DNA of 64,000 nt from Segatella copri (lineage in GTDB: Bacteria > Bacteroidota > Bacteroidia > Bacteroidales > Bacteroidaceae): assembly GCF_015074785.1 (NCBI RefSeq), contig NZ_CP042464.1:62001-126000 (forward strand), in the 5' to 3' direction. The notes under the pieces were generated by a model. The model was not told the DNA's origin. It did no database searches and saw only the letters and a program-made list of their open reading frames with translations. This document shows, in pieces, positions 9,163 through 47,808 of the stretch (positions are counted from its first letter, which is position 1; every line of letters starts with the position of its first letter). Made by a program: the position numbers and the translations under genes.

Positions 9163-9189
9163 AAAGTTCAAAGTTCAATGTTCAAAGTA
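9163..9189 (+). repeat. heptad array supplying the tatD start
   Basis: Units AAGTTCA, AAGTTCA, ATGTTCA, AAGT with a 7-bp period after an ATCATA leader. The third unit contains the ATG of the next gene, so its first residues (MFKV) come from the repeat. Confidence 0.7.
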
Positions 9190-10014
9190 ATAGATACACA
9201 TACGCATTTCGATGCGGAAGAGTTTGATGAGGATAGGGCGGAGGCTTTCGCCCGTGCCAAGGAAGCGGAGGTAGGCAAGGTGTTCTTGCCTGCCATCGAT
9301 GTGAAGACCACACACGCGGTCCTGGCATTGGCTAAGGAATATCCGGGCTATGCTTATCCGATGATTGGTCTGCATCCTGAAGAGGTGAAGGCTGACTGGA
9401 AGGAACAGCTGGCTGAACTCCGGAAGATACTGGAGGAGCATCGCATGACCGGTAATGCCAGTCAGGCGGATTCTCCTCAGTTTTCTGACTTGATCGCCAT
9501 CGGAGAGGTAGGACTTGATTATTACTGGAGCCGTGAGTTCGAAAACGAGCAGCTCGAGGCTTTCGAGGAACAGGTAAAATGGTCGGTAGAAACCCAGCTC
9601 CCGCTGATGATTCATTGCCGCAAGGCGCAGAACGAGATGGTACATCTGCTCAGAAAGTATGAGAAAGAACTGCCGGGTGGCGTCTTCCATTGCTTTACGG
9701 GCAATCAGAAGGAGGCAGAAGAACTCCTCTCGTTCGATAAGTTTGTATTGGGCGTCGGTGGCGTATCTACTTTCAAGAGCAGTCATCTGCGTGAAGACCT
9801 CCCTGCCGTAGTTCCTCTGGATCGCATCGTTCTGGAGACCGACAGTCCGTATATGGCGCCTGTTCCTTATCGCGGCAAGCGTAATGAGAGTGCTTTCGTG
9901 GTAGAAGTGATGAAGACGCTCGCCAAGGCTTATGGCATAAGCGAAGAGGAGTTTGCCCGACAGACCAACCTCAATGCAGAGCGGGTTTTTCCGCTATCCG
10001 TATCGCAAGTATAG
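9178..10014 (+). CDS. TatD family metal-dependent hydrolase (DNase)
   Basis: TIM-barrel metallohydrolase of the TatD family, with 3'-5' exonuclease or DNase activity in characterised members. Metal ligands are visible: DTHTHFD at residues 6-12, the glutamate in AIGEVGLDYYW, the histidine in LPLMIHCRKA, VFHCFTGN and the terminal aspartate in LETDSPYMAPVPYRGKRNES. The length of 278 residues is slightly above the usual 260 because of an insertion near residues 85-95 (EHRMTGNASQADSPQFSD). The start codon lies inside a heptad repeat. The gene sits 19 bp after the polyprenyl synthase. Confidence 0.92.
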   Translation: MFKVIDTHTHFDAEEFDEDRAEAFARAKEAEVGKVFLPAIDVKTTHAVLALAKEYPGYAYPMIGLHPEEVKADWKEQLAELRKILEEHRMTGNASQADSPQFSDLIAIGEVGLDYYWSREFENEQLEAFEEQVKWSVETQLPLMIHCRKAQNEMVHLLRKYEKELPGGVFHCFTGNQKEAEELLSFDKFVLGVGGVSTFKSSHLREDLPAVVPLDRIVLETDSPYMAPVPYRGKRNESAFVVEVMKTLAKAYGISEEEFARQTNLNAERVFPLSVSQV

Positions 10015-10088
10015 GACGCAAGCGTTCAAAACTCCTTAAATAAACATAAAAAAACAATGAAAGTTATGGTATTTCGGAGGAAAAGCAA

Positions 10089-10096
10089 TAATTTTG
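10089..10096 (+). promoter_or_regulatory. candidate -7 box upstream of tRNA-Ser
   Basis: TAATTTTG matches TAnnTTTG about 59 bp before the tRNA. No good -33 box is seen at 19-20 bp. It could drive tRNA-Ser and perhaps the exb operon. Confidence 0.35.
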
Positions 10097-10154
10097 CACT
10101 TCGAAATTGTTGCAGCAGCATGTTGCGGCGATTAAGAAGAGTTCTTCGGAATAT

Positions 10155-10242
10155 GGAAAGGTGCTCGAGTGGCTGAAGAGGCACGCCTGGAAAGCGTGTA
10201 ACCGGCAAAACCGGTTCGGGGGTTCGAATCCCCCTCTTTCCG
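10155..10242 (+). tRNA. tRNA-Ser (anticodon GGA)
   Basis: An 88-nt class II tRNA. The acceptor stem GGAAAGG pairs with TCTTTCC (last pair G-T), followed by discriminator G. The anticodon loop is CTGGAAA between CACGC and GCGTG, with GGA at 10189-10191. A long variable arm (CCGGCAAAACCGG) and a T arm GGGGG-TTCGAAT-CCCCC complete the fold. CCA is not encoded. It reads UCC and UCU serine codons and sits 23 bp before exbB. Confidence 0.97.
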
Positions 10243-10265
10243 CTTTTATATATATAATAAGGTAT

Positions 10266-10979
10266 ATGAAGAAAAATACAGCTATTGCACGTTTTGCAAT
10301 ATTGGTTTTCACATGGATGTGTTCTCTGCCTATGATGGCTCAAGAAGAGAACATGGGATTTCATCAAGCTCTTAAGACAAAGTTTATAGAGGGTAATGCG
10401 GGATTTATGTCTCTCGTTGCCATCGCCCTCATCGTGGGTATGGCTTTCTGTATCGAGCGCATCATCTATCTGAGTCTTTCTGAAATCAACGCCAAGAAGT
10501 TGATGCAGGATATCGACCAGAAGGTGTCGGCGGGAGATGTGGAAGGGGCTAAGACGCTCTGCCGGAATACCCGCGGACCGGTGGCTTCTATCTGCTACCA
10601 GGGTTTGATGCATATCAGCGAGAGTCTTGATGACATCGAACGCTCGGTAAGCGGATATGGTACCGTTCAGGCGGCTAATTTGGAGAAGGGATGCTCTTGG
10701 ATCAAACTCTTTATCGCTATGGCGCCATCGCTCGGATTCCTCGGAACCGTAATCGGTATGGTCATGTCGTTCGACCAGATTCAGCAGGCGGGCGATATCA
10801 GTCCTACTATCGTTGCTTCGGGTATGAAAGTGGCGCTCATCACTACTATCTTCGGTATCATCGTAGCCCTCATCCTTCAGGTTTTCTATAACTACATCCT
10901 TTCTAAGGTGGAGCACCTGACAAGCCAGATGGAGGAGTCGGCGGTTACTTTAATGGATATTATTGCCAAGAATAAATAA
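10266..10979 (+). CDS. exbB: MotA/TolQ/ExbB proton channel family protein
   Basis: Proton-channel subunit of the ExbB-ExbD-TonB motor in the inner membrane. The ATG at 10266 gives 237 residues with a signal-like first helix (MKKNTAIARFAILVFTWMC). An upstream in-frame ATG at 10107 would read through the tRNA gene and is rejected. Hydrophobic segments lie at about 45-65, 145-170 and 190-215. The conserved ExbB signature is seen in LFIAMAPSLGFLGTVIGMV and SPTIVASGMKVALITTIFG. It heads an operon of four genes ending at 12626. Confidence 0.92.
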   Translation: MKKNTAIARFAILVFTWMCSLPMMAQEENMGFHQALKTKFIEGNAGFMSLVAIALIVGMAFCIERIIYLSLSEINAKKLMQDIDQKVSAGDVEGAKTLCRNTRGPVASICYQGLMHISESLDDIERSVSGYGTVQAANLEKGCSWIKLFIAMAPSLGFLGTVIGMVMSFDQIQQAGDISPTIVASGMKVALITTIFGIIVALILQVFYNYILSKVEHLTSQMEESAVTLMDIIAKNK

Positions 10980-10991
10980 ACGAAGAGAGAA

Positions 10992-11504
10992 ATGGTTAAA
11001 TTTCAATTTTCAAAGCAGAAGACGAAGTCGGCCGAAAAGATATCGCAGCAGGTGTTCTATATCATGATAGGATTGGCGGTGCTGGTTTTCGGTCTGTTCT
11101 TTTTGGTAGGCTACGATTTGCCTTTCGAAGAGAACCCCGACTTTAATGCGCCTCTCTTTACCGATGTGCTCATCCTGCTGATGTGGCTCTTCCTGATAGG
11201 AGGTACAGGTCTGGCAGTCTTTTCGATGATCAGAGATTATTGCAGCAGCAAGTCGGAGGCTGTAGTGAATGGCATTCCCGTGCGCCGCATCTTCCGCATC
11301 ACATGGATCGGAACTTTGGCAGTTTTGCTGCTTACCTTCCTTTTGGGCGGTTCTGCTCCGATGCTCATCAATGGCGAGAATTATGCCGACTGGCTCTGGC
11401 TCAAGCTTTCAGATATGTTTGTCATCACATCGCTCCTGATGCTGGTGGCAGGAATCGGTGCCGTCTGTTTCGGTGCCACACGTTATATTCGGAAGAAAAA
11501 CTAA
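10992..11504 (+). CDS. four-helix membrane protein of the exb operon, unknown function
   Basis: A 170-residue protein that I do not recognise by name. It has four predicted membrane helices, at about residues 22-42, 57-79, 105-125 and 140-160, and a short basic C-terminus (RYIRKKN). Positive charges cluster at the N-terminus (MVKFQFSKQKTKSAEK) and in the second loop (SKSEAVVNGIPVRRIFR). It lies 12 bp after exbB and 43 bp before exbD, so it is almost surely cotranscribed and may be an accessory subunit of the motor. No catalytic motif is visible. Confidence 0.75.
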   Translation: MVKFQFSKQKTKSAEKISQQVFYIMIGLAVLVFGLFFLVGYDLPFEENPDFNAPLFTDVLILLMWLFLIGGTGLAVFSMIRDYCSSKSEAVVNGIPVRRIFRITWIGTLAVLLLTFLLGGSAPMLINGENYADWLWLKLSDMFVITSLLMLVAGIGAVCFGATRYIRKKN

Positions 11505-11525
11505 AGAGAGCTCTTTGGGCTCTCT
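11505..11525 (+). terminator. small hairpin inside the exb operon
   Basis: AGAGAGC and GCTCTCT enclose a 7-nt loop directly after the stop of the membrane protein gene. It may modulate the exbB:exbD ratio or protect an RNA end; there is no T run. Confidence 0.35.
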
Positions 11526-11547
11526 ATTCTATAAATAAGGATTAAAT

Positions 11548-12165
11548 ATGCTGATTAGAAGGAAGCAACACGAAACCCCGGGACTGAATACCACATCTAC
11601 AGCCGACATTTCGTTCATGCTGTTGATATTCTTCCTTGTCACCACATCGATGGATGTGGATAAGGGACTGTTGCGCCAACTCCCTTCACCTGAACCGCAG
11701 AAGAAGGAGCAGCAGCAGACGGCGGTAGACAAGGCTAACCTGATGGCGCTGCGCCTGACAGCTGGCGATACGCTTTTGGTTAATGACAAGCCGATGAAGG
11801 TGAGCCAGCTCAAGGAAGAAACCATCCGCTTTGTACACCGCCTGGGCAAGAAACATCTCATCTCTATCGAGAGTGACCGCGATGCCGACTATAATCTCTA
11901 TTTCCAGATGCAGAATCAGCTGATGGAAGCATATAGCCAGCTACGCAACGAAACAGCCCAGAAGAAATATCACAGGAATTATGCCCTCTTGAACAATGAC
12001 CAGAAAGAACAGGTGCGCAACATCTGTCCGCAGCGCATCACAGAGTCGTATGCCAACGCAATGACTCAAACCGACCAGCGTGTTGATGCCAATGCTGAAG
12101 AAAAGCAAGGGGAAGAAAAATCGGCAGAAACAGCTACAGAACAGCAGAAAGGAGGTAAACAATGA
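11548..12165 (+). CDS. exbD: ExbD/TolR family biopolymer transport protein
   Basis: Small inner-membrane partner of ExbB. The N-terminus MLIRRKQHETPGLNTTSTADISFMLLIFFLVTTS has the single membrane helix with the conserved aspartate (D25 in TADISFM) needed for proton use. A periplasmic domain follows, and then an unusually long hydrophilic tail (residues 120-205) rich in Gln, Glu and Lys, ending in EKSAETATEQQKGGKQ. A strong AGGAGG Shine-Dalgarno for the next gene is contained in its last codons, and the stop overlaps the next start (ATGA). Confidence 0.9.
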   Translation: MLIRRKQHETPGLNTTSTADISFMLLIFFLVTTSMDVDKGLLRQLPSPEPQKKEQQQTAVDKANLMALRLTAGDTLLVNDKPMKVSQLKEETIRFVHRLGKKHLISIESDRDADYNLYFQMQNQLMEAYSQLRNETAQKKYHRNYALLNNDQKEQVRNICPQRITESYANAMTQTDQRVDANAEEKQGEEKSAETATEQQKGGKQ

Positions 12166-12626: not shown

Positions 12627-12657
12627 TATTAATTTATCATTTTTTTCTCTTAAAAAA

Positions 12658-12688
12658 TTGCTTTTATTAATTTTTTGTATTATCTTTG
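12658..12688 (+). promoter_or_regulatory. promoter of the Lrp/AsnC regulator
   Basis: TTG (12658-12660), 20 nt spacing, then TATCTTTG (12681-12688). It argues that translation starts at the ATG at 12708, not at an upstream in-frame TTG within the promoter. Confidence 0.65.
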
Positions 12689-12707
12689 CAAGCAAATTAT
12701 TAGTATT

Positions 12708-13226: not shown

Positions 13227-13242
13227 GATATAAAAAAGAAAA

Positions 13243-13274
13243 AAAGCAGTAGCTCCCTGCGGGATTACTGCTTT
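13243..13274. terminator. bidirectional terminator between the Lrp gene and folA
   Basis: AAAGCAGTA (13243-13251) pairs with TACTGCTTT (13266-13274) around an inner CCC/GGG stem. A run of A on one side and T on the other allow use from both strands. It overlaps the last codons of folA. Confidence 0.65.
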
Positions 13275-13814: not shown

Positions 13815-13846
13815 AATGTTGAATGTTGAGTGTTGAATGTTGAATT
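13815..13846. repeat. TGTTGAA heptad array (32 bp), copy in intergenic DNA
   Basis: Period-7 units TGTTGAA/TGTTGAG. The whole 32-bp stretch is identical, same strand, to 57862-57893 inside a coding region. Confidence 0.85.
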
Positions 13847-13857: not shown

Positions 13858-13897
13858 CTGTAAACTGTTAACTATAAACTGTTAACTGTAAACTGTT
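13858..13897. repeat. CTGTTAA heptad array at the rsmF-like stop codon
   Basis: Units CTGTTAA, CTATAAA, CTGTTAA, CTGTAAA with a 7-bp period. It encodes the last residues (QFTVNSL) and the stop codon (13872-13874) of the methyltransferase. Confidence 0.75.
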
Positions 13898-15287
13898 CTT
13901 CCGGAACATGGCTACTCTTGATCTTCCACTCCTGCGGATAGAGGTTGTTGGCACGGTTGCCGATGTTCTTTTCCCAGCCTATCGGAACCTGTCTGTAGGT
14001 TACCAGAACATAACCCTTAGGCGTATCGGCAGGTAGATTCACAGCCTCCTTGCGAAGGTAGCGGATGGCATCTTCGTAGGATAACTCCACCTGTGGGAAG
14101 TGATTTTTGTTGAGCATCGTAGAGAGAGCGAGAGCCTGGTCGGGGATAAGTCCCTTTCCCTTGTCTGTTCCCAGTTTCACACCTGCATGCAGCACCTTCA
14201 GGTTCTTTTCAGCCTGGTCGTAGATGTCTTTCCATCTGCCCGGAATGGCGTAAACAGTCTCGTTGCTTTCTGCAGGCATCCATTCCGTATCAGTCTTCAG
14301 CCAGCCGTCCGGAATCTCCGGTCCCTTTCCTTTAGCCACCTTCTTGTCTTTCTTTTTCTTATCCTTTCTGTTCTCCTTGGCTTGTGAGCCGGCTTCCCAT
14401 TCGCCCTCTTTCTTCAGAATCGCCATAAACAGACCTTCGCCTCGCGAAACGCCAGGAATGAACCGGTAAACAGGGAAGTCGGTGCCCGTGAGGTTGCGGG
14501 TGATGTTCCATGTATCTTCTACACCCTCCAGTGCCATCACTTCAGCGCCAAGTTCTTCGCATATCCAGGCAACGTTCTCCTCATCTTCGTGCGCATTGAA
14601 GGTGCAGGTAGAGTAAATCAGGATACCGCCTGGCTTCAGACAGTTCCAGATATCCGATACGATTTCGCGCTGCAGCTGCCAGCAGTTGTTCACATTCTGG
14701 GTACTCCATTCGCCGATAGCCCCTTCATCTTTGCGGAACATTCCTTCGCCGGAGCAGGGAACATCGGTAAGGATCACATCAAACTGCAACTTCGATTTCT
14801 TGTAATCGCGGGGATAGTTGTTGGTTACAATCATATCCGGATGACCGAACTTCTGTACGTTCTCGGCAAGAATCTGCGAGCGGGTGCGCATCGGTTCGTT
14901 GCTGAAGAGCAGACTCCCTTCCGGCAAGGCAGCCCTTACGGCAGTCGACTTTCCGCCAGGGGCAGCACAGAGATCCAGCATCATCACCGGTTCTTTTACG
15001 TACTGTCGGATAGCCATATCAACAAACATAGATGAGGCTTCCTGTACATAATATAAGCCGGCATGCAGCAGCGGATCGAAGGTGAATCCGGGACGGGTAG
15101 AGAGATAACGTCCGGTTTCCGGACACCAGGGAACCGGTTTGCCATCAGCATCCTTGCATTTGAAAGGATTGATGCGGATGCTGGTTGGTACCTCCTCTTC
15201 AAGGATAGCATGCTCCAGACGCTGATACAGCTTTTCGCCCATCAGCGCCTGCGTATATGTTCTGAAATCTTCAGGTAATGTCTTCAT
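13872..15287 (-). CDS. RsmF-like 16S rRNA (cytosine-C5) methyltransferase
   Basis: A 471-residue SAM-dependent methyltransferase of the NOL1/NOP2/Sun family that modifies cytosine in rRNA. The SAM-binding motif is MLDLCAAPGGKSTAVRAALP. The two catalytic cysteine motifs are DVPCSGEGMFRKD and YSTCTFNAHEDE. A lysine-rich linker (ENRKDKKKKDKKVAKGKG) leads to a C-terminal PUA-like region with YLRKEAVNLPADTPKGYVLV, as in RsmF/YebU. The last residues and the stop codon are supplied by a heptad repeat, so the natural end may once have been different. A promoter lies at 15315-15345. Confidence 0.9.
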   Translation of the reverse strand: MKTLPEDFRTYTQALMGEKLYQRLEHAILEEEVPTSIRINPFKCKDADGKPVPWCPETGRYLSTRPGFTFDPLLHAGLYYVQEASSMFVDMAIRQYVKEPVMMLDLCAAPGGKSTAVRAALPEGSLLFSNEPMRTRSQILAENVQKFGHPDMIVTNNYPRDYKKSKLQFDVILTDVPCSGEGMFRKDEGAIGEWSTQNVNNCWQLQREIVSDIWNCLKPGGILIYSTCTFNAHEDEENVAWICEELGAEVMALEGVEDTWNITRNLTGTDFPVYRFIPGVSRGEGLFMAILKKEGEWEAGSQAKENRKDKKKKDKKVAKGKGPEIPDGWLKTDTEWMPAESNETVYAIPGRWKDIYDQAEKNLKVLHAGVKLGTDKGKGLIPDQALALSTMLNKNHFPQVELSYEDAIRYLRKEAVNLPADTPKGYVLVTYRQVPIGWEKNIGNRANNLYPQEWKIKSSHVPEEQFTVNSL

Positions 15288-21750: not shown

Positions 21751-21778
21751 GCCCTGTAAGGCTTGGGCCTTACAGGGC
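21751..21778. terminator. terminator after carB
   Basis: GCCCTGTAAGG pairs with CCTTACAGGGC (11 bp) around a 6-nt loop, with A6 on one side and TATTTT on the other. It serves carB on the minus strand. Confidence 0.75.
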
Positions 21779-21803
21779 GTATTTTATATAAATCCGCGTG
21801 CGA

Positions 21804-26067: not shown

Positions 26068-27437
26068 GTACAGAACATTCCAAGAGAGCTGCGAAGTTTA
26101 CGCAGAACGTAGAGAAGACCACCTGGCACGACGCTACCTTCTGGTCTGTTCGTCAGAAAAGAGATAAGATGGCGCAGGAACTTCCTGAGTGGGAAGATCT
26201 CCGCGAGCATGCGTCTGAAATCAAGATGCACACGATTACTCATCTCGCCGATTATCTCGATATGTTTTCCAAGAATCTGGAGAGCCGTGGGGTGAAGGTT
26301 CACTGGGCAAAGGATGCACAGGAATTTAATGAGATTGTGCTCGGTATCCTGAAAGATCATAACGTGAAGAAGATGGTGAAGTCGAAGTCGATGCTCACCG
26401 AGGAGTGCGAGATGAATCCTTATCTGGAGCAGCACGGCATTGACGTGGTGGAGACCGACCTGGGTGAGCGCATCATCCAGCTTCTGGGTCAGAAGCCTAG
26501 CCATATCGTGATGCCTGCCATCCACCTGAAGCGTGAGGAGGTAGGTAAGATGTTCGAGGAGAAGGGAATCTCCAAGGAAATCGGCAACTATGATCCTACT
26601 TATCTGACCCGCTGTGCCCGTCATCATCTCCGCGACCAGTTTATGGAAGCTGGAGCTGGTATGACTGGCTGTAACTTCGGTGTGGCTGCTACCGGCGATT
26701 GCGTGGTCTGCACCAACGAGGGTAATGCGGATATGACCACTTCCATGCCTAAGCTCCATATCGTAGCGATGGGTATTGAGAAACTGGTTCCTGATTATAA
26801 GTCACTGGCTGTATTCCAGCGCCTGCTTTGCCGCTGCGGAACCGGTCAGCCTACCACTACCTTTACCTCTCATTTCCGCCAGGCTCGTCCGGGTGCCGAG
26901 ATGCATGTGGTATTGGTGGATAACGGCAGAAGCGACATTCTTGCTGATAAGGACCACTGGCAGACGTTGAAGTGTATGCGCTGCGGTGCCTGCATGAATA
27001 CCTGTCCGGTTTATCGTCGTTCGGGTGGTTACAGCTACACCTATTTTATTCCGGGTCCTATTGGCGTGAACCTGGGTATGCTGAAGAATCCTCAGAAGTA
27101 CAGCGACAATGTTTCGGCATGTACTTTGTGCTTGTCTTGCGATAATGTCTGTCCTTCCAAGGTAGGACCGGGTTCTCAGATTTATGTCTGGCGCCAGAGT
27201 CTGGAGAAGTTGGGTAAGGCTGATCCTGTCAAGAAGGCGATGTCGAATGGTATGAAGTATCTCTTCGACCGTCCTGCGCTCTACACCACTGCCCTGAAGT
27301 TTGCTCCGCTTGTCAATCTGGTTCCTGAATGCTGTACGCACTTCAGCAATTGGAATGCCTGGGGCATCGGTCACGCCATGCCTGAGTTTGCAAAGAAGAG
27401 TTTCCATCAGCTTTGGAAAGAAGGAAAGGTGAAGTAG
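26064..27437 (+). CDS. lutB: L-lactate oxidation complex, ferredoxin-like subunit LutB
   Basis: A 457-residue subunit with an N-terminal LUD domain (including GMTGCNFGVAATGDCVVCTN) and a bacterial ferredoxin region carrying two 4Fe-4S sites: CMRCGACMNTCPVYRR (about residue 305) and CTLCLSCDNVCPSKVG (about 355). A C-terminal helical domain (residues 390-457) ends in SFHQLWKEGKVK. Overlap with lutA and the gene order match the lut operon of Firmicutes and ykgEFG of E. coli. No lactate permease or LutR-type regulator is adjacent. Confidence 0.93.
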   Translation: MSTEHSKRAAKFTQNVEKTTWHDATFWSVRQKRDKMAQELPEWEDLREHASEIKMHTITHLADYLDMFSKNLESRGVKVHWAKDAQEFNEIVLGILKDHNVKKMVKSKSMLTEECEMNPYLEQHGIDVVETDLGERIIQLLGQKPSHIVMPAIHLKREEVGKMFEEKGISKEIGNYDPTYLTRCARHHLRDQFMEAGAGMTGCNFGVAATGDCVVCTNEGNADMTTSMPKLHIVAMGIEKLVPDYKSLAVFQRLLCRCGTGQPTTTFTSHFRQARPGAEMHVVLVDNGRSDILADKDHWQTLKCMRCGACMNTCPVYRRSGGYSYTYFIPGPIGVNLGMLKNPQKYSDNVSACTLCLSCDNVCPSKVGPGSQIYVWRQSLEKLGKADPVKKAMSNGMKYLFDRPALYTTALKFAPLVNLVPECCTHFSNWNAWGIGHAMPEFAKKSFHQLWKEGKVK

Positions 27438-27448
27438 TGGGTAATCAT

Positions 27449-27480
27449 AAAGTTCAAAGTTCAAATTTCAAAGTTCAATG
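27449..27480 (+). repeat. heptad array supplying the lutC start
   Basis: Units AAGTTCA, AAGTTCA, AATTTCA, AAGTTCA, ATG with a 7-bp period after an ATCATA leader. The lutC ATG (27478) is the last three bases of the array. Confidence 0.75.
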
Positions 27481-28056
27481 AAGAAAGAAGATTTCCTGAA
27501 CAAGTTGCGTAAGAATACGCACGTTCAATTCGATATGCCTGCCGTAGATGTGAAGGGTATCCAGTATGAGGATACGCTGAAACAGTTTATTGAGATGACG
27601 GAATCGGTAGGCGGTCATGTGATAGAGGCGAAGGAGGGTGAGAGTCTGGATGAGCTGGTGAAGAAGGCTTATCCGGAAGCCAAGGTCTTTGCTTCTCATC
27701 TGCCAGAAATCACGATTGCCCAGAAGAATCCTGATACCGTGGCTGAGGCTAACGACCTGAATGGTACTGATGTGGGTATTGTTCGTGGTGAAGTGGGTGT
27801 TGCCGAGAATGGCTGCATCTGGATTCCTCAGACCATGAAGGAGAAAGCGGTGCTCTTTATCTCGGAATACCTTGTAATATTCCTCGAAAAAGAGAAGATT
27901 GTGAACAATATGCATGAGGCTTATGCCCGTATTGAGATGGATCCGAAGTACAATTTCGGTATTTTCATCAGTGGTCCTTCCAAGACTGCCGATATTGAGC
28001 AGGCTCTGGTAATGGGTGCGCAGGCAGCCAGAGGCGTAACCGTAGTGCTTTTGTAA
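27478..28056 (+). CDS. lutC: L-lactate oxidation complex subunit LutC
   Basis: A 192-residue LUD-domain protein of the LutC/YkgG family, third subunit of the lactate-oxidising complex. Recognisable segments are the N-terminal MKKEDFLNKLRKNTHVQFD, the central VAEANDLNGTDVGIVRGEVG and GVAENGCIWIPQTMKEKA, and the conserved C-terminal GIFISGPSKTADIEQALVMGAQAARG. It lies 40 bp after lutB; that gap is filled by a heptad repeat whose last unit provides the start codon. Confidence 0.92.
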   Translation: MKKEDFLNKLRKNTHVQFDMPAVDVKGIQYEDTLKQFIEMTESVGGHVIEAKEGESLDELVKKAYPEAKVFASHLPEITIAQKNPDTVAEANDLNGTDVGIVRGEVGVAENGCIWIPQTMKEKAVLFISEYLVIFLEKEKIVNNMHEAYARIEMDPKYNFGIFISGPSKTADIEQALVMGAQAARGVTVVLL

Positions 28057-33300: not shown

Positions 33301-33349
33301 AATTAATCACTAATAACAAATAATTAATCACTAATAATTAATCACTAAG
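33301..33349. repeat. AATCACTAATAATT repeats (heptad period) at a stop codon
   Basis: On the minus strand TTAGTGA and TTAATTA alternate with a 7-bp period. The first unit encodes the last residues (LSD) and stop of the cytidylate-kinase-like gene. Confidence 0.65.
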
Positions 33350-33961
33350 TCCGAACTTCTTTCTGATAAATTCTGCGATAAACTTCTCTGTTTCTTCGAT
33401 TCCCAGATGGCTGCTGTTGATGCAGAGGTCGTAGCTCTCGCTGTGTCCCCACTTCTTGCCTGTATAGTAATCGTAGTAAGAGGCGCGCTGCTCCTCATGG
33501 CTTTCGATGAACTTGCGAGCGGAGGCTCTGTCGATGTCCTTTCGCTTGCACACTGCCTTGATGCGGTCGTCGATATTGGCGGTGATGAAGATGTTGATCA
33601 CGTTCTTGTAATCACGCAGTACATAGTCGGCGGTTCTGCCCACAAACACGCAGTTGCCCTCATCGGCAGCCTTTCTGATGGCGTCGCTCTGGAACTTGTA
33701 CAGACCTTCCTGCGAGAAGTCGTTGTGATAGAAATTGTTATCGCTCAGGAAGGGCAGATGGGTATGGAAGAGAGACTTGAAGAATCCCTTCTGCTCATCG
33801 TTCTGCTCGAAGAATTTCTCAGAGAATCCACTCTCCTTGGCGGCAAGATTCAGCAGCTCACGGTCGTAACATTTGCAACCGAAATCCTCCGCCAGCTTCT
33901 CGGCGATGATATGGCCGCCGCTACCTATCTGGCGACCCACGTTTATGATAATCTTATTCAT
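33338..33961 (-). CDS. cytidylate kinase-like family protein
   Basis: A 207-residue P-loop kinase of the Cytidylate_kin2 type (PF13189-like), different from Cmk at 5.6 kb. The P-loop is IINVGRQIGSGGHIIAEKLA (residues 5-24); CYDRELLNLAAKESGFSEKF and CVFVGRTADYVLRDY follow, as in the family. Substrate unknown; members occur beside transporters or regulators. It lies 68 bp upstream of purT. The stop codon lies in a heptad repeat. Confidence 0.85.
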   Translation of the reverse strand: MNKIIINVGRQIGSGGHIIAEKLAEDFGCKCYDRELLNLAAKESGFSEKFFEQNDEQKGFFKSLFHTHLPFLSDNNFYHNDFSQEGLYKFQSDAIRKAADEGNCVFVGRTADYVLRDYKNVINIFITANIDDRIKAVCKRKDIDRASARKFIESHEEQRASYYDYYTGKKWGHSESYDLCINSSHLGIEETEKFIAEFIRKKFGLSD

Positions 33962-34112
33962 AATTTATAGTTTATAATTTATAGTTTACAGTTTATAGTT
34001 TACAGTTTATAGTTGAAAGTTTATAGGGCTTAGCAGTTAGCAAGATTGCTATAAACTATAAATTTCAAACTATTAACTGAATGAATGCCCTATTAACTAT
34101 AAACTTTTAACT
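33962..34112. repeat. long AGTTTAT heptad array
   Basis: About nine heptads at 33962-34026 (AGTTTAT, AATTTAT, AGTTTAC and variants), then reverse-oriented units at 34049-34078 and 34090-34112 (CTATAAA, CTATTAA). The array fills the gap between the MATE and kinase-like genes and could form an A/T-rich cruciform or hairpin. Confidence 0.75.
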
Positions 34113-35473
34113 TTTAGCTGTTCTTGGTGTTGTCTTTTCAACTTGTTCATGTACCATACCATGACGACTCCGGCGATGACTGCGGCTGAGAAGTCGGAGA
34201 TAGGCATACTGTACCATACTCCATCAATGTCCCAGATCATCGGCAGGAAAGCCAGGAGCGGCAGAAGGATGAGCAACTGTCTCGACAAGGAGAGGAAGAT
34301 ACTGATCTTCACCTTTCCGATGCACTGGAAGAAGTTCGTGATGACCATCTGGAACCCGATGACCGGGAAGCAGAACATCACTACTCTGATCGCCTTAATG
34401 CCCAGGTCTATCAGATGCTTATCGGTAGTAAACATTCTCGCGCAGTAGTAAGGCAGGAACATCGCTATCAGCCAGCCCGTTACCATGATGGCGGTGGCGG
34501 CAATGATGCTCAGATTCAGTACGCGCATCAGTCGGTCCAGTTTCTGTGCTCCATAGTTGTAGCCGGCTATAGGCTGCATTCCCTGGTTTACGCCTAATAC
34601 GAACATGATGAACACCATCGCAATACCATTGGCTATTCCGTAGGCTCCCACGGAGAGGTCGCCTCCGAACCGCACCAGCTGGTTGTTGATGAAGATGACG
34701 ATGATGCAGGCGCACACGTTCATCAGGAAAGGCGAAATGCCGATGGCGAGGATGTTATCTACGAGTTTCCTCTTCAGTTTGTAGATTCCTTTCTTGAAGT
34801 GGAGCAGTTCACTCTTGTTGCTGAAGAGCTTGATCTGCCACATCAGCGCCATCAGCTGCGAAAGGATGGTGGCGATGGCGGCACCCTGTATTCCCCATTT
34901 GAAGACGAGGATGAAGAGGGCATCGAGTATCACGTTCATCACCACCGTGAAGATGGTGGCGTACATCGCCTGCTTGGGCTTGCTCGCTGCTCGGAGCAGG
35001 GCGTTCATGCCGAAATACATGTGGCTCACCACATTGCCCAGCAGGATGATGACCATATACTCATGGGCATAGATGAGCGTCTGGTCGCTGGCTCCGAAGA
35101 ATCTCAGGATTGGGTCGAGGAAGAGCAGACAGATGATGCTCAGTCCGATACCGATGATGAGATTCAGTGAAATCGTGTTACCCAGAATGTTTTGCGCTGT
35201 GGCATAGTCTTTTTGTCCCAACTTCACGCTGATGGCAGTAGACGCTCCTACGCCCACACCGGCTCCGAAGGCAGCGGTGAGGTTCATGAAGGGGAAGGTG
35301 ATGGCGAGACCTGAGATGGCCATGGCTCCCACACCCTGACCGATGAATACTCGGTCTACGATGTTGTAGAGTGAGGCGGCGGTCATCGCAATCATAGCTG
35401 GCAAGGCATACTGAACGAGCAGCTTGCCCACCGGCTTCGTACCTAATTCTAATGTCGCTTGTTTATTTTCCAT
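34097..35473 (-). CDS. MATE family efflux transporter
   Basis: A 458-residue, 12-helix multidrug/toxin extrusion protein. The N-terminus ELGTKPVGKLLVQYALPAMI and IVDRVFIGQGVGAMAISGLA are typical of the family, as is the internal repeat beginning near residue 235 (ILAIGISPFLMNVCACIIV) with GVNQGMQPIAGYNYGAQ. Cation (Na+ or H+) antiport is expected. Substrate unknown. A TACTTTTG box on the minus strand (35546-35553) lies 73 bp before the start. It belongs to a different subgroup from the MATE gene at 61.1 kb. Confidence 0.92.
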   Translation of the reverse strand: MENKQATLELGTKPVGKLLVQYALPAMIAMTAASLYNIVDRVFIGQGVGAMAISGLAITFPFMNLTAAFGAGVGVGASTAISVKLGQKDYATAQNILGNTISLNLIIGIGLSIICLLFLDPILRFFGASDQTLIYAHEYMVIILLGNVVSHMYFGMNALLRAASKPKQAMYATIFTVVMNVILDALFILVFKWGIQGAAIATILSQLMALMWQIKLFSNKSELLHFKKGIYKLKRKLVDNILAIGISPFLMNVCACIIVIFINNQLVRFGGDLSVGAYGIANGIAMVFIMFVLGVNQGMQPIAGYNYGAQKLDRLMRVLNLSIIAATAIMVTGWLIAMFLPYYCARMFTTDKHLIDLGIKAIRVVMFCFPVIGFQMVITNFFQCIGKVKISIFLSLSRQLLILLPLLAFLPMIWDIDGVWYSMPISDFSAAVIAGVVMVWYMNKLKRQHQEQLKVKSL

Positions 35474-37198: not shown

Positions 37199-37200
37199 AC

Positions 37201-37239
37201 TTGGAACTTTGAACTTGGAGCTTTGAACTTTATGATTAG
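37201..37239 (-). repeat. heptad array, reverse orientation, after the subtilase
   Basis: On the minus strand GCTAATCATA followed by AAGTTCA-type heptads. Same leader as the arrays before tatD, lutC and xseA. Confidence 0.65.
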
Positions 37240-37296
37240 CTTTGCTGCTATATGATAAGGGAAGTTCCAGGGGGCTAAGTACCAAGTAATAGTATT

Positions 37297-37340
37297 CATA
37301 AAGTTCAAAGTTCAAAGTTCAAAGCTCAATGTTCAAAGTA
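37297..37340 (+). repeat. heptad array supplying the xseA start
   Basis: TCATA leader and about five heptads AAGTTCA / AAGCTCA / ATGTTCA. The ATG of xseA (37329) is in the last full unit, so the protein begins MFKV. Confidence 0.8.
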
Positions 37341-38633
37341 AAAAGGTTATCTCTCTATGAATTGAACTCCATAGTCCGTGAGGTCATTTCGATGTCCTTG
37401 CCCGACAGCTATTGGGTGGAAGCGGAACTCTCCGAGGCTCGCGAGGGCTACGGCGGGCACTGCTATCTGGAACTCATCGAGAAGGATGAGCGCTCTAATA
37501 CGCCCATTGCCAAGGCGCATGCCTCCTGCTGGCGAAACCGATGGATGTTCATCAAACCGAATTTCGAGCGCATCACCGGACAGCGCATTCATGCCGGTAT
37601 GAAAGTGCTGCTCAAGGTGCACGCGCAGTTTCATGAGAACTATGGCTTTTCCTGGATAGTAGATGATATTGACCCTAACTATACGATGGGCGATATGGCG
37701 CGCAAGCGGTTGGAAATCATCAATACGCTGAAAGCAGAGGGCGTCTTTGAACTGCAGAAGGAGTTGGTGCTCCCGATGTTCTGCCAGCGCATCGCCGTCA
37801 TTTCCAGTGCTACGGCTGCTGGATATGGTGATTTCTGCAACCAGCTTGCCGATAACGATTATGGTCTGCAGTTTCAAACCCGCCTCTTTCCGGCTACGAT
37901 GCAGGGCGAGGGGGTAGAGCAGAGTGTGATAGCTGCCCTCGACAGTATCAATGCCGAATGGGAACAGTTTGACTGCGTAGTCATCATCCGAGGCGGTGGT
38001 GCTACGAGCGATCTCTCGGGTTTCGACACTCTGGCGCTTGCCGAGAATGTGGCAAACTTCCCGCTGCCTATCATCACGGGAATAGGACATGAAAGGGACG
38101 AGAGTGTGCTGGATATGATTTCTTTCCAACGTGTAAAGACACCGACAGCCGCTGCCGCCTTCCTCGTTAATCATCTTACTGAGGTTTATGCTCGTGTAAT
38201 GAATGCGCAAGAGGCTATCGTGCAGAATGTGAAGCACCGTCTGCAGGTGGAGAAGATGAGGCTAGACAGACTGAGCAACACGATTCCTGTCCAGTTTTCG
38301 CTGGTGAAGACGAAGCAGGGTGCCTATCTCGACCGCTTGATGAGTCGTTTAAGCACAAATGTCCAGTCGAAACTATCGGAAGCCCAGCGCCATTTCGAGA
38401 TTCTTTCTCAGAATGTTCAGCCGATATTGGAAAGGAAGATGCTCAACGAGAGTCATCGTCTGCAGCTTCTTTCCCAGCGCATCCAGGCACAAGACCCCGA
38501 ATTGTTGCTGAAACGTGGCTACAGCATTACGCTGAAAGATGGCAAAAGCATCCATTCTGCCTCGCAACTGAAGTCTGGCGACATCATTGAAACGAGGTTG
38601 GCCGAGGGCAGCGTGAAGGCAAAAGTTGAATAA
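37329..38633 (+). CDS. xseA: exodeoxyribonuclease VII large subunit
   Basis: Catalytic subunit of exonuclease VII, which digests single-stranded DNA from both ends. The N-terminal OB fold covers about residues 8-105 (LSLYELNSIVREVISMSLPD, WVEAELSEAREGYGGHCYLEL). The catalytic domain has IAVISSATAAGYGDFCNQL, VVIIRGGGATSDLSGFDTLA and IITGIGHERDESVLD. A long coiled coil (about 290-395) precedes the C-terminal LLKRGYSITLKDGK motif. The start codon and first four residues come from a heptad repeat. It forms an operon with xseB across a 203-bp gap containing a three-hairpin element. Confidence 0.95.
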   Translation: MFKVKRLSLYELNSIVREVISMSLPDSYWVEAELSEAREGYGGHCYLELIEKDERSNTPIAKAHASCWRNRWMFIKPNFERITGQRIHAGMKVLLKVHAQFHENYGFSWIVDDIDPNYTMGDMARKRLEIINTLKAEGVFELQKELVLPMFCQRIAVISSATAAGYGDFCNQLADNDYGLQFQTRLFPATMQGEGVEQSVIAALDSINAEWEQFDCVVIIRGGGATSDLSGFDTLALAENVANFPLPIITGIGHERDESVLDMISFQRVKTPTAAAAFLVNHLTEVYARVMNAQEAIVQNVKHRLQVEKMRLDRLSNTIPVQFSLVKTKQGAYLDRLMSRLSTNVQSKLSEAQRHFEILSQNVQPILERKMLNESHRLQLLSQRIQAQDPELLLKRGYSITLKDGKSIHSASQLKSGDIIETRLAEGSVKAKVE

Positions 38634-38673
38634 TAGTTTATAATTTATAGTTAATAGTTTATAGCAATCTGGC
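38633..38673. repeat. AGTTTAT heptads after xseA
   Basis: Units TAGTTTA, TAATTTA, TAGTTAA, TAGTTTA with a 7-bp period, starting at the xseA stop codon. Confidence 0.55.
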
Positions 38674-43473: not shown

Positions 43474-46400
43474 TTACTGGTTGCCTTCCGGCATTCTGCC
43501 ACCTCTGCCATGATAGAGACGGTAGAGGTTGTTGAGCTGTTTCTCATACTTCTGCTCCAACTGTGGACTCACCATTCCGGCAGCCTCGCAGATGCTCTGC
43601 ATGATCATGATCTGACGGATGCAGTCATGCTCTGCCTGGAGGAAACGGTCGTTTGGCAGCGAGAGATAGTAGTTGAGGTATTGTGAAGCATTCTTCCATA
43701 CCGCTTCTATATATTCCTTGCCCTTGGCTTTCTGACCGGTCATCAGCCAGCCGCGAGCCATATCCAAGCCACCGCTCATGTAGTCGAGCGTAACATTGTA
43801 GGCAGGAATCTCGGTATCAGCCTTCTTCAGAATGTTGATAGCCTTCTGCTTCTTGCCTTCGGCGATGAGCTGGAGGGCTGTCTGGGCGAGCAGGCGACGG
43901 TGGGTATAACACATACGCATGGTTGTCTCGTCGATGTAGAGTCCCTTCTGCTTCAGGTTGCCGAACTTGAATCGGGTCATGATGTTGTGATAAGCCTTCT
44001 CTGTATCGAAGTTCTTGGCACCTGGCTTGTTGGTGGTGAACGGAGTGATACGGTTCACAAGTCCCTCCTGTATGAAGTTGTCACCCAGGTTCATATAGTT
44101 CTCTTCGCCTACGGTGAGTGCTACGTAGAGCGGACGGGTCCAGTTACACTGTGCCAGCATTTCGAGCATCATGAGGTCGCCCTTGTAGAGTGCGCTCTTG
44201 CCGGCAAGCGAGATGACCATCTTGTCTGGAATAGAATCTGATGCCATCATCATGCCGCTCTTCTTTACAGCCTCCTTGTCGATGGTGACATAGAGGGTAT
44301 CTGTAGGGATGAAGTGCATGTCAGGGTTCTTGCTGCGTACCCAGTTCTTCAAGATGTTCTTGAGCTCGAACGGTTCGGCACCAAACTGCTTCTTGGCATT
44401 CTCAGGATCTTGCTTGTAGAAGTCGAGAATCTGCTTCTTTGCCTCAGGTTCAACAGATACATATTCGTTGGTACCTGAACAGAAGTCGAGACGTGGCCAG
44501 GTGATTGGCACGGATGGTGAGTTGTATGCAGGACGCATCATCTGGTCGATATACCAGTCGGTCTGCAGGTAGCTCAGGTTACATACGCGGGCATCTGTTC
44601 CTACGCCTTCTACCTCCTGGTTGTACCAGAGTGGGAAGGTATCGTTATCACCATTGGTAAAGATGATAGGGTTGCCCTTCTCCTGGAGTGACATCAGATA
44701 GTTCTGACCGAAGTCACGGCAGGTGTAACGGTTTGAGCGGTCGTGATCATCCCAGGTCTGTGATGCCATCTGGATAGGTACGAGAAGTGTGATGACTGCT
44801 ACGATGGCTGTTACGGCAGTACCGCTGAGCTTCATCTTGCGCTTCAGAATGTCGATGATGGCGAGTACGCCGAGACCGCACCAGATAGCGTATGCATAGA
44901 ATGAGCCGGCATAAGCATAGTCACGCTCACGTGGCTGCATAGGTGTCTGATTCAGGTAGATGACGATGGCAAGACCTGTCATGAAGAAAAGGAAGAATAC
45001 AATCCAGAACTGCTGGATACCGATAGGGAGGAGTACTTCCTCTTCCTTGCCGTTCTTCATTACCTTCTTCTTGCGGGTATACCAAGCCTGCCAGAAAAGT
45101 CCGATGAGACCGAGAATCAGTGGCATGCAGTAGAATACATTGTGGCCCTTGTTCTCCTTCAGGTCGTCTGGCAATTTGCTCTGGTCGCCATAGAGTGAAT
45201 CATCGATGAATGAGAAACCGGTAATCCAGTTTCCGTGCTCTGGCTCACCATTGCCCTGGATGTCGTTCTGACGGCCGGCAAAGTTCCACATGAAGTAGCG
45301 CCAGTACATGAAGTTGCACTGGTAAGAGAGGAAGAAGCGGATGTTGTCAAACTGTGACGGCATCTTCACCATCATACTCTCTCCGCAGCGGTCGTAAGGA
45401 ATCTCTGTGCCTTCTACACCGCCCATCCAGTCTTCGTAAGCCTGGGCATGAGCCGAACTGTACATACGAGGGAAGAGCATGTTCTGGGCATAGATATACT
45501 TATTCTTGTGACTTACTACGAAGTAAGAGTCCTTCTCATCAGCCGAAGCCTTCTCCTTGCGCTGGTAAACCGGTGCGCCTTCCTTCATGACAGGCTTGCA
45601 CATGTTGCCGTCTACTTCGAGGGCTACCTGTGATGTATAAGCCTGGCCATAGAACAGAGGGCGGTCGCCATACTGGTCGCGGCTCAGATAACTTCCCAGG
45701 GTAAAGATGTCCTCAGGAGAGTTCTGGTCCATAGGAGGGTTGGCAGAAGAACGGATCACGATGAGTGCGTAGCTGGAATAACCAATCATCAGCATCAGCA
45801 TGCAGAGCAAGGCTGTGTTCTTGACGCGTGCTGAGATGAGCGGCAGGAGCTGCATCTTCTTCTTGGCGATGCCAGTAGATTCGTCAACGCCTGTTACTAC
45901 CTCCTGCTTGCGCTTGTAGCCGAGTACAAACCAGAGGATAACCAGCACGATGATGCCGGTGATGGCAGCTGTCCAGCCATATCCGTAGAATGGGATGCCG
46001 AGCATGCCGAAACCGAGAACGAAGGCGATATTCTGCTTCTTCTCGTTCTTCTCTGATGCATTACAGGTCTCGTAGATGCCCCAGATGACAGAGGCTACAA
46101 GACAGATGATGTATACGATTTCACCGGTATTGAACGGACAGCCGAGGGTGTTGACAAAGAACAGCTCGAACCAGCCGCCTACGGTGATGATGCCTGGAAC
46201 CACACCATACAGTACGGCTACCACTACGAGGAATGAAAGGAACAGTGCCAGGAGCGAACCCTTGAGGTTGGCATGTGGCACCTTCTTGTAGTAATAAACC
46301 AATACGATGGCTGGGATACAGAGCAGGTTGAGCAGGTGGACACCGATACTCAAACCGGTCATATAGGCGATGAGCACAAGCCAACGGTCGCTATGAGGCT

Positions 46401-46908
46401 CGTCAGCATGGTCTTCCCACTTCAATATCAGCCAGAATACCACAGCGGTAAAGGCAGAAGAGAACGCATAAACCTCACCCTCGACAGCAGAGAACCAGAA
46501 GGTATCGCTGAAGGTGTAGATGAGTGCGCCCACCATACCGGATGCCTCGATGGCAATCAGCTTGCTGGTGGTCAGTTCTTTCCAGTCGCTGATAACGAGT
46601 CGGCGAGCCAGGTGGGTGATGGTCCAGAAGAGGAACATGATACAGACGGCGCTCAGCAGGGCGCTCATCGTATTTACCATCTTGGCTACCTGGGTAGTGT
46701 CGCTGGCGAAATGTGTGAAGAAATTGCCTAAAAGCATGAAGAATGGTGCCCCAGGTGGGTGACCGATCTCCTGCTTGTAAGCAGTCGTAATAAACTCAGG
46801 ACAGTCCCAGAAGCTGGCTGTCGGTTCAATTGTGGAACAATAAGTGAACGCCGCAATGATGAATGCGACCCATCCGAAGATATTGTCCACTAATCTGTAC
46901 TGTTTCAT
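43474..46908 (-). CDS. DUF2723 family multi-pass membrane protein, probable GT-C-type glycosyltransferase
   Basis: A 1,144-residue protein with about 12 or more membrane helices in the first 650 residues. Recognisable DUF2723 segments are PTASFWDCPEFITTAYKQEI, HPPGAPFFMLLGNFF, then FWFSAVEGEVYAFSSAFTAV and RERDYAYAGSFYAYAIW. The soluble C-terminal part (about 700-1144) has LGTDARVCNLSYLQTDWYID-like text and TPR-like helices (KQKAINILKKADTEIPAYN). The family is thought to be related to protein mannosyltransferases (GT-C fold) and to act in surface glycosylation in Bacteroidetes; the substrate here is unknown. It is preceded by a TATCTTTG -7 box (47006-47013). Confidence 0.85.
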   Translation of the reverse strand: MKQYRLVDNIFGWVAFIIAAFTYCSTIEPTASFWDCPEFITTAYKQEIGHPPGAPFFMLLGNFFTHFASDTTQVAKMVNTMSALLSAVCIMFLFWTITHLARRLVISDWKELTTSKLIAIEASGMVGALIYTFSDTFWFSAVEGEVYAFSSAFTAVVFWLILKWEDHADEPHSDRWLVLIAYMTGLSIGVHLLNLLCIPAIVLVYYYKKVPHANLKGSLLALFLSFLVVVAVLYGVVPGIITVGGWFELFFVNTLGCPFNTGEIVYIICLVASVIWGIYETCNASEKNEKKQNIAFVLGFGMLGIPFYGYGWTAAITGIIVLVILWFVLGYKRKQEVVTGVDESTGIAKKKMQLLPLISARVKNTALLCMLMLMIGYSSYALIVIRSSANPPMDQNSPEDIFTLGSYLSRDQYGDRPLFYGQAYTSQVALEVDGNMCKPVMKEGAPVYQRKEKASADEKDSYFVVSHKNKYIYAQNMLFPRMYSSAHAQAYEDWMGGVEGTEIPYDRCGESMMVKMPSQFDNIRFFLSYQCNFMYWRYFMWNFAGRQNDIQGNGEPEHGNWITGFSFIDDSLYGDQSKLPDDLKENKGHNVFYCMPLILGLIGLFWQAWYTRKKKVMKNGKEEEVLLPIGIQQFWIVFFLFFMTGLAIVIYLNQTPMQPRERDYAYAGSFYAYAIWCGLGVLAIIDILKRKMKLSGTAVTAIVAVITLLVPIQMASQTWDDHDRSNRYTCRDFGQNYLMSLQEKGNPIIFTNGDNDTFPLWYNQEVEGVGTDARVCNLSYLQTDWYIDQMMRPAYNSPSVPITWPRLDFCSGTNEYVSVEPEAKKQILDFYKQDPENAKKQFGAEPFELKNILKNWVRSKNPDMHFIPTDTLYVTIDKEAVKKSGMMMASDSIPDKMVISLAGKSALYKGDLMMLEMLAQCNWTRPLYVALTVGEENYMNLGDNFIQEGLVNRITPFTTNKPGAKNFDTEKAYHNIMTRFKFGNLKQKGLYIDETTMRMCYTHRRLLAQTALQLIAEGKKQKAINILKKADTEIPAYNVTLDYMSGGLDMARGWLMTGQKAKGKEYIEAVWKNASQYLNYYLSLPNDRFLQAEHDCIRQIMIMQSICEAAGMVSPQLEQKYEKQLNNLYRLYHGRGGRMPEGNQ

Positions 46909-47075
46909 TATTGTTTAAACTTTAATGTATTATATTTCTTTTTGAATGCTTTCTCTGTTTCTGAATGCTTTCTCCGCGCCTTTCAAGAAAGGCACATTCC
47001 AGTTGCAAAGATAATAAAAAGATGAGATAATATGGATTTTTGCACCTGTTTTTTAGGCATTATTATATAATAAGC

Positions 47076-47792
47076 CTATACATTTAAGAAATGCTCTTCC
47101 AGTTTTTCTCTCGGCATATCTGCCGTATCGTGGTAGTGGAGATGATGATTTACGCAGGCGATGTGCTTTACGTTATTAAGCACTTCGGCTACATCATGGT
47201 TTACGATGATAATGGCGCACTCCCGGTTGATCTGTTCCAGCATCTCGTACATCTGCTTCTGGAAACGGCGGTCGATGTAGGTGTTGGGCTCATCCAGTAT
47301 CACTACATCGGGTTTCGAAACAATGGCGCGGGCGAGGAGGACTCGCTGCAACTGTCCGCCGCTCAAGGCTGCGATATGGCGGTCTTTCAACTCTGTGAGC
47401 TGCATCTGTTCCAGACAGTCGAGTACCTGCTGGTGCTGTGCCTGGGTGTATCTCGAAAAGAGACTTTTGGTCTTGCTGAGTCCTGAGAGTACCACTTCAT
47501 AAACGGAGATAGGAAACTGTTTGTCGAGATGGTTGTATTGGGGCAGATATCCCATACTGATTTCCCTAACTTCCTCTCCGTCTTTATAAAAGCGGATGCT
47601 GCCGTCTGTGGGGTTCATCAGTCCCAGGATGAGGCGCATGAGAGTTGTCTTGCCACCACCGTTGGGACCGATGATGCCAAGATAATCGTCTTTGCAGACG
47701 GTGAGGTTGATATCGTGGAGCACCTCCTTGCCTTCATAGCCAGCAGAAAGATGCTCTATCTCTATTAACTTTGAACTTTGAACTTTGAACAT
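47076..47792 (-). CDS. znuC: zinc/manganese-type metal ABC transporter, ATP-binding protein
   Basis: A 238-residue ABC ATPase of the ZnuC/MntB-like group. Walker A is GIIGPNGGGKTTLMRLILG, the Q-loop is GYLPQYNHLD, the signature is ALSGGQLQRVLLARAIV and Walker B is DVVILDEPNTYID. HDVAEVLNNVKHIACVNHHL gives the switch histidine. It follows the substrate-binding protein gene across a three-hairpin repeat. The permease partner is not in the window. The start ATG (47790-47792) and the first residues (MFKVQSSK) come from a heptad repeat; LIEIEHLSAGYEGKEVL is where the real domain begins. Confidence 0.88.
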   Translation of the reverse strand: MFKVQSSKLIEIEHLSAGYEGKEVLHDINLTVCKDDYLGIIGPNGGGKTTLMRLILGLMNPTDGSIRFYKDGEEVREISMGYLPQYNHLDKQFPISVYEVVLSGLSKTKSLFSRYTQAQHQQVLDCLEQMQLTELKDRHIAALSGGQLQRVLLARAIVSKPDVVILDEPNTYIDRRFQKQMYEMLEQINRECAIIIVNHDVAEVLNNVKHIACVNHHLHYHDTADMPREKLEEHFLNV

Positions 47793-47808
47793 TGAACTTT
47801 ATGATTAG
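47764..47808 (-). repeat. heptad array supplying the znuC start
   Basis: On the minus strand an AATCATA leader and AAGTTCA, ATGTTCA, AAGTTCA, AAGTTCA, AAGTTAA units. The second heptad contains the znuC ATG, so N-terminal residues MFKVQSSKL are repeat-encoded. Confidence 0.8.

Follow-up and report, generated by a model that had tools for sequence, protein, structure and literature searches.

Direct repeats of the heptamer TAACTGA have been described in marine Beggiatoaceae, some Cyanobacteria and five Bacteroidetes (MacGregor, 2015, PMC4679880) and are mentioned in a paper on Thiomargarita (PMC4853749); those of the Beggiatoaceae are the closest known precedent for the sequences reported here. 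As to translation starts, the upstream regions of Bacteroidetes are low in GC and a Shine-Dalgarno sequence in an unstructured leader was without effect on expression in Prevotella bryantii (PMC3155529), and in Flavobacterium an A at -3, -6, -12 and -13 helps (PMC6847099). We analyzed 64,000 nt of Segatella copri DNA (contig NZ_CP042464.1, positions 62,001 to 126,000; hereafter the window), in which AAGTTCA arrays with a 7-bp period lie at gene ends (Table 1). On balance, these arrays probably belong to a dispersed element of gene boundaries, one that recruits codons for starting and stopping translation and that, in bacteria lacking Shine-Dalgarno starts, persists by serving as an A-rich start region.

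The element has the consensus GTAATCAT(AAAGTTC)4-5AAAG and a length of about 40 bp; its 5' end is fixed, its 3' end fades, and it contains neither terminal inverted repeats nor a palindromic unit. This anatomy is well supported; any function is putative. From all DNA fetched we gathered 192 copies and dropped 38 with fewer than three units, leaving 154, of which 57 have four units and 65 have five, with a maximum of nine. A forward open reading frame (ORF) starts at or near the array in 87 of the 154 copies, and the encoded proteins fall into 70 families, 57 of them singletons. Throughout, "genus" denotes that of the nearest genome compared (G001); the genus of the window is Prevotella/Segatella by its named relatives. 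A 451-bp query around the lutC copy found matches in 168 of the 398 genomes of the genus; part of the matches are lutBC homologues, and many among the matches listed span the leader and array alone. The opening (G)TAATCA(T/C) followed by an array was present in 15 of 16 leader-plus-array loci inspected. A strict leader pattern hit 16 of 120 genus genomes (reversed-pattern control, 0), and across the order 2 of 119, namely G001 and one genome with the leader string but no array; those 119 include just one genome from another genus of the same family, so that sister genera are hardly covered. A pattern of two array units by itself hit 19 of 60 genomes and its reversed control 4 of 60, 23 times in one of those. 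A second family (TAGTTTA plus ATAGGGC) was found by exact pattern in G001 and G051 only, among 120 genomes.

That period 7 stands out was established by scanning for matches s[i]=s[i+p] with a run threshold score of at least 13, and with Tandem Repeats Finder (TRF). The window holds nine such runs at period 7, two at period 9 and none at periods 4-6, 8 or 10-13, and 20 Markov shuffles of it gave none at periods 6, 7, 8 or 14. In the window together with 20 stretches of G001 (448,001 unmasked bases; two masked stretches were left out of the period-spectrum and boundary counts), 35 period-7 arrays compare with 4 at period 8 and 14 at period 9, the largest count at any period not a multiple of 7. 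An enrichment outside the window had been put forward as a check by an earlier, sequence-only reading of this DNA, and these 35 arrays in 448 kb provide it. All of the AAGTTCA, TGTTGAA and AGTTTAT arrays listed by that reading appear in the period scan, and its CTGTTAA array at 13858 is detected by TRF; of two further entries, 33301 was found by TRF alone and 31984 fell below both thresholds. The common leader it saw ahead of five AAGTTCA arrays is there, as TAATCAT or TATTCAT in each case. It lacked the arrays at 8143, 57862 and 57912 and the stop of a MATE-family gene (34097) within an array, its position range excluded the macroglobulin array at 3208-3244, and it did not recognize that the AAGTTCA arrays share a leader and an orientation rule and make up a single dispersed family.

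The orientation rule emerges from the flanking genes. Relative to the element, both neighbors run forward at 79 copies and both run backward at 23, while 14 are of the -+ and 13 of the +- type; 19 copies lie inside ORFs and 6 at an edge, and removal of these leaves a boundary set of 129. Between genes of the same direction the element is thus forward in 79 of 102 cases and reverse in 23 (p = 2e-8, shared ancestry not corrected). A start lies inside the array or within 20 nt past its end at 59 of the 79 forward junctions, and a stop does so at 21 of the 23 reverse ones. A gene boundary (-45 to +20 nt) is found at the array side of 89 of the 129 placed copies and at the leader side of 44; on the leader side, gene starts fall within -45 to +20 nt of the leader in 9 of 37 cases, with 14 at the leader under a looser rule. 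Starts lie within -35 to +13 nt of the element in 68 of 154 copies vs. 52 of 755 random places, and the upstream same-direction stop is exactly the leader TAA in 18 of 95 copies.

Placement was also examined for all heptamer families, using 32 mostly noncoding arrays from the window and the G001 sample. An outward-reading start occurs within -40 to +15 nt of 21 arrays and a stop within that distance of 14, while 300 random noncoding placements gave means of 4.6 (maximum 11) for starts and 4.7 (maximum 13) for stops; AT-matched placements (100 trials) raised the mean for starts to 9.1 (maximum 15). The enrichment at coding-sequence boundaries that had been suggested as a check is therefore found, with 21 of 32 arrays near starts. 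These counts bear on ordinary slippage, by which heptanucleotide simple repeats would have grown in place in noncoding DNA, their abundance reflecting a preference of polymerase slippage for heptamers, with gene ends drifting into them neutrally. We regard slippage as rather unlikely: it does not account for boundary counts above placement controls, it predicts by itself neither the forward bias (79 to 23) nor an identical unit in distant species, and shared flanks such as the fixed leader, which recurs at unrelated loci, are not expected of arrays grown in place. In its favor, several unit families and other unit lengths occupy similar places, compact junctions leave little room so that arrays abut both genes, and heptamers outnumber other long simple repeats in most of the genomes that Mrazek (2007) surveyed, as reported in PMC4679880.

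The element's own codons fit both orientations. Read forward, the leader TAATCATAA has TAA twice in frame, and the array is free of stops in any of the frames, with a change of AAAG to AATG creating a start (MFKV...). Read in reverse, each TTTGAAC unit carries TGA, so that three units stop all frames; stops cluster in 7-bp steps, and the reversed leader (ATGATTA) holds an ATG. Starts within the array are placed at -34, -27, -20, -13 and -6, again in 7-bp steps (22 of 87), and MFKV opens 10 of the 87 predicted proteins, among them three TatD orthologues. Of 27 in-array starts, 20 have no further in-frame ATG nearer than 15 codons, or 11 when GTG and TTG are counted as well; we infer that in-array ATGs are used as starts. 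In the window, as the sequence-only reading had it, tatD, xseA and a znuC-like ORF all start MFKV inside a AATGTTCAAAG unit, and the stops of the macroglobulin, RsmF-like and cytidylate-kinase-like genes all lie within arrays; the lutC-like ATG it placed at an array end begins on the array's last base, 27478. The leader TAA of copy 1 is the stop codon of a prenyl synthase gene (8184-9158).

Predicted gene ends were compared with those of relatives. Most of the window is syntenic with G001, aligned blocks being 91-98% (mostly 96-98%) identical in nucleotide sequence; the best named relative is S. copri iA622, with a TatD 88% identical, and the window therefore belongs to the copri group. The znuC-like protein of the window begins MFKVQSSKLIEIEHL, and in G001 and G051, without the array, it begins MTPIIKIEHL. 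XseA begins MFKVKRLSLYEL in the window, MKQRFSLYEL behind other repeats in G001, and MERLRLSLFEL behind TAGTTTA arrays in G051; among the best 120 of 8000 XseA relatives three start MFKV, short segments like MQH or MVKH being commonest. Because orthologues without an AAGTTCA array start differently, the array supplies the predicted start of both genes. The claim that arrays create starts thus holds for these two; the start of lutC is native, and tatD is discussed below.

At the lutBC junction the element is present in the window and G051, and a compact overlapping junction is found in G001, G116, G174 and G003. The G001 junction (L226) is closer to the compact G116 junction (L230) than to that of the window, which suggests that recombination has replaced this allele in a background that is otherwise closely related. 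By eye, other short-unit tandem repeats fill the junctions L229, L244 and L251 (G012, G191 and G151), with apparent 8- and 9-bp repeats in G191 and G151; with such repeats in other species, intergenic spacers here seem to be repeatedly built from tandem repeats. A third filled and empty pair lies at a purC-like gene, with the element in G001, none in G051, and an identical start; a second copy in the same G001 stretch is common to G051.

Predicted C-termini were compared as well. The RsmF-like protein ends EEQFTVNSL in the window and GELFIVNSLQQE in G001, and the MATE protein ends QLKVKSL and QLKVNS, respectively. The macroglobulin ends YELKVNN in the window and iA622 and YELRVNN in G001, a 7-bp difference swapping TGA for TAA, and the end of the cytidylate-kinase-like gene is the same in the window and G001. 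Between these two genomes the array at 8138 differs in length by 7 bp, those at 13858 and 33304 by 14 bp each, and that at 3208 also in a 7-bp step; 33956-34116 is more rearranged. Such 7- and 14-bp steps between close strains are what slippage of unit copy number would produce. Gain or loss of an array, substitution by a different array and whole-unit change are all seen among orthologous sites.

Inverted copies raise the question of a miniature inverted-repeat transposable element (MITE) or a repetitive extragenic palindromic (REP)-like element with arms made of heptamers and mobilized by a trans-acting transposase. Dispersed copies, presence or absence at orthologous sites, and long hairpins in the predicted folding of head-to-head array pairs would agree with such an element. 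Most of the 154 copies, however, have no inverted partner within 400 bp: there are 11 such pairs, all head-to-head, and 8 more pairs in the same direction. The loops, 40-368 bp long, look unlike one another, and a common loop was rejected on this ground. Divergent genes with a forward copy each would yield head-to-head pairs, yet the pair at 37199-37336 lies between genes of the same direction. Carriage by plasmids or phages was also rejected, with no match in 72,556 plasmid records and 2 in 50,697 phage records, both unannotated; among 16 viral contigs with the leader pattern an array is present in 2 and absent from 14. We consider a MITE- or REP-like origin improbable. Eight of the 16 viral contigs (L290-L292, L295, L299, L300, L302 and L304) share one array-free context, which is probably conserved phage sequence with a chance leader match. 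In G001 two further inverted heptamer-array pairs (L127:612-782 and L127:3905-4050) have long stems; G051 has a short palindrome, perhaps a terminator, in place of the second.

Arrays could instead act in transcription, as binding sites or upstream promoter sequences. A Bacteroidetes-type -7 box, TAnnTTTG, follows the array on its 3' side at no more than 60 nt in 21 of 154 copies, compared with 6, 8, 10 and 0 in four comparison windows. At 59 of the 79 forward same-direction copies, however, the start is inside the array or at most 20 nt past it, where the array is probably within the transcript, and a transcriptional role seems to us very improbable.

A role as a translation-start region agrees with some base preferences. 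In-array starts have A at -6 and at -13 (87% each); for starts just past the array the share with A at -6 is 72% (of 43), as against 53% among 293 other starts, and these starts are unevenly distributed in register with the array (p = 0.002, ancestry not corrected). Repeated downstream residues were left out of these counts and of those of in-array starts. Support from base preferences and predicted folding is suggestive only, and for Kozak-like optimization of element starts the picture is mixed.

Several observations weigh against a boundary element that provides start regions. In-array starts carry T at -3 (96%) and not the favorable A, and the advantage in predicted folding is slight (-2.27 kcal/mol for element starts vs. 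-2.67 for GC-matched other starts; all others, -3.50). TatD begins MFKV in the window, G001, G051 and iA622, and in iA622 only among 72 loci readable by the motif rule of 80 named ones; G001 keeps MFKV with a TAGTTGA array replacing the AAGTTCA array, the very kind of start, in a strain without the array, that the sequence-only reading had named as contradicting it. At the 79 other tatD loci, most of which bear a Prevotella or Prevotellaceae label, the 75 heptamer arrays are placed nearer to stops (29) than to starts (13), and arrays of 8 bp (35) and 22 bp (37) are also frequent; the start preference is therefore not general in the wider group. When arrays were sampled without using the leader, 12 of 31 had it and 19 did not, so the leader marks one family and not every array. 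The 154 copies were collected via the leader, in part with a query lying close to a start, and copies that are related to one another do not count as independent; gene calls follow a simple ORF rule favoring the first ATG. We saw no transposase tied to the element, though the search for one was not systematic, and inspection by eye showed no target-site duplication in the three filled and empty pairs, whose flanks also differ; the latter may count against the MITE- or REP-like origin as well.

On the reading as a dispersed boundary element, copies have been added to or removed from gene junctions, the lutBC, znuC-like and purC-like sites being filled and empty examples. Either end could serve the gene at the boundary, the forward copy through its leader stops and array start and the backward copy through its array stops and leader ATG; the element's own codons could then make good an insertion near a stop or start, and some predicted gene ends are now made of array sequence. 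Forward copies might be kept by selection as acceptable or favorable translation-start regions, since these bacteria skip Shine-Dalgarno pairing and favor unstructured, low-GC upstream regions. As for spread, we would guess at template switching or recombination between dispersed copies, followed by slippage of copy number in 7-bp steps, because nine bases of the leader region, AATCATAAA, are present in the empty znuC-like allele. More tentatively, the element could be a portable gene-boundary adaptor, a self-dispersing sequence of about 40 bp whose two ends would stop the incoming and start the outgoing gene in either orientation, offer a ready-made start region to bacteria lacking Shine-Dalgarno starts and rewrite protein ends time and again (MFKV...).

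Repeats in DNA tend to be regarded as filler or, within genes, as phase switches. In the present case a single short sequence is found at the ends of dozens of unrelated genes, and for two conserved genes that were compared it holds the predicted start, which in relatives lies elsewhere. Should in-array starts be used, noncoding repeats would be a route to new translation starts and protein ends. Alleles that occur naturally in pairs, one holding the element and one lacking it, against a background that is mostly 96-98% identical, could serve for testing what makes a start region in a phylum without Shine-Dalgarno sequences.

Table 1. Element copies, other heptamer arrays and associated genes in the window (gene names by Pfam/NCBIfam matches)
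Feature	Position	Strand	Remarks
Element copy 1	9156..9191	+	Leader TAATCAT and AAGTTCA array; tatD ATG 9178 in AATGTTC unit
Element copy 2	27441..27478	+	GTAATCAT and array; between lutB-like stop (27435-27437) and lutC-like ATG (27478)
Element copy 3	37199..37238	-	Array, then reverse-complement leader ATGATTA; directly 3' of S8 peptidase stop; head-to-head with copy 4
Element copy 4	37293..37336	+	Variant leader TATTCAT and array; xseA ATG 37329 in AATGTTC unit
Element copy 5	47767..47807	-	znuC-like ATG (47790-47792) in array; units encode residues 2-8 (FKVQSSK)
tatD	9178..10014	+	MFKVIDTHTH
xseA	37329..38633	+	MFKVKRLSLYEL; S8 peptidase gene precedes
ABC ATPase, znuC-like	47076..47792	-	Below curated NCBIfam cut-off for families shown; above for Pfam ABC_tran
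lutC-like gene (LUD domain)	27478..28056	+	Native start
Weak AATTGATAGTTAAA (7/14-bp) array	3208..3244	+	Holds TGA stop of macroglobulin-family gene 18-3227; TRF score 46-47
TATAAAT-type heptamer array	8143..8182	+	ATG of 8184-9158 one base further on
AATGTTG array	13815..13845	+	31 bp identical to 57862-57892
CTGTTAA/CTGTAAA array	13858..13897	+	Holds stop (13872) of RsmF-like gene 13872-15287(-)
TTAGTGA/TAATCAC array	33304..33348	+	Holds stop (33338) of cytidylate-kinase-like gene 33338-33961(-)
TAGTTTA array (33956-34021) and inverted TATAAACT-type arrays (from ~34050)	33956..34116	+	Hairpin fold; MATE gene (34097-35473, -) stops inside
AGTTTAT array	38633..38664	+	First base is last base of xseA stop codon
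Two heptamer arrays, AATGTTG and TTCACTC	57862..57938	-	Inside ORF 56591-61078(-), read in frame

The macroglobulin-family gene has Pfam A2M and bMG10 domains, and the protein of the ORF with in-frame heptamer arrays has BcrAD_BadFG and DUF2229 domains. A 35-bp piece of that ORF (57905-57939) recurs without change in the intergenic DNA ahead of tatD in iA622 (L001:9920-9954). The identical arrays at 13815-13845 and 57862-57892, 44 kb apart and one intergenic, one in the ORF, share a variant third unit; their G001 orthologues differ from those of the window and from each other. Another repeat family, with CCCTTACAGGGCG and GCCCTGGG/CCCAGGGC palindromes, lies at about 47818-47900 and also in G001 opposite window positions 21765-21794, its presence varying between the two. 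A known structured RNA was excluded as an identity for the arrays, Rfam at gathering score yielding only a tRNA (10155-10242) in the window.

Open-access literature on heptamer or intergenic repeats in Prevotella or Bacteroidetes gave, among the matches listed, no other title or abstract opening describing this element. With the Kozak-like or unstructured starts of Bacteroidetes the element shares A-rich, low-GC, weakly folded upstream regions without Shine-Dalgarno sequences, to which A at -6 and -13 conforms; those are general tendencies, whereas here an element is repeated and the in-array starts are without A at -3 (PMC6847099, PMC3155529). Like RPE, RUP, ERIC and Correia sequences it is dispersed and largely intergenic, and as among those some copies are fused in frame and some have stops in all frames; but those are about 100-200 bp long with stable stem-loops and mostly terminal inverted repeats, and the present element is about 40 bp and paired only where two copies meet (PMC2229807). 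Long simple sequence repeats with units of 5-11 nt (Mrazek, 2007, via PMC4679880) have the heptamer period and whole-unit copy-number change in common with it. Unlike them, the element has a leader, an orientation rule and one sequence dispersed to unrelated genes. The heptamer short tandemly repeated repetitive (STRR) sequences of cyanobacteria are a further relative. The TAACTGA repeats, in a paper whose main text does not contain the word Prevotella, have 7-nt units with few copies per set (two to six there; mostly 4-5 and up to 9 here), and in their main genome they are mostly forward and just upstream of starts without the usual ribosome-binding site (PMC4679880). That paper also offers parallels in repeat-free relatives with shorter intergenic regions, in 7-nt insertions and deletions, in a discussion of reading-frame consequences, and in a proposed translational role. 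In contrast, TAACTGA is not the unit of any array detected here (AAAGTTC and others), and our element has a constant leader, is confined to one genus among the genomes searched, provides array-made starts and stops as judged from orthologue comparison, and has two ends that are both compatible with gene ends.

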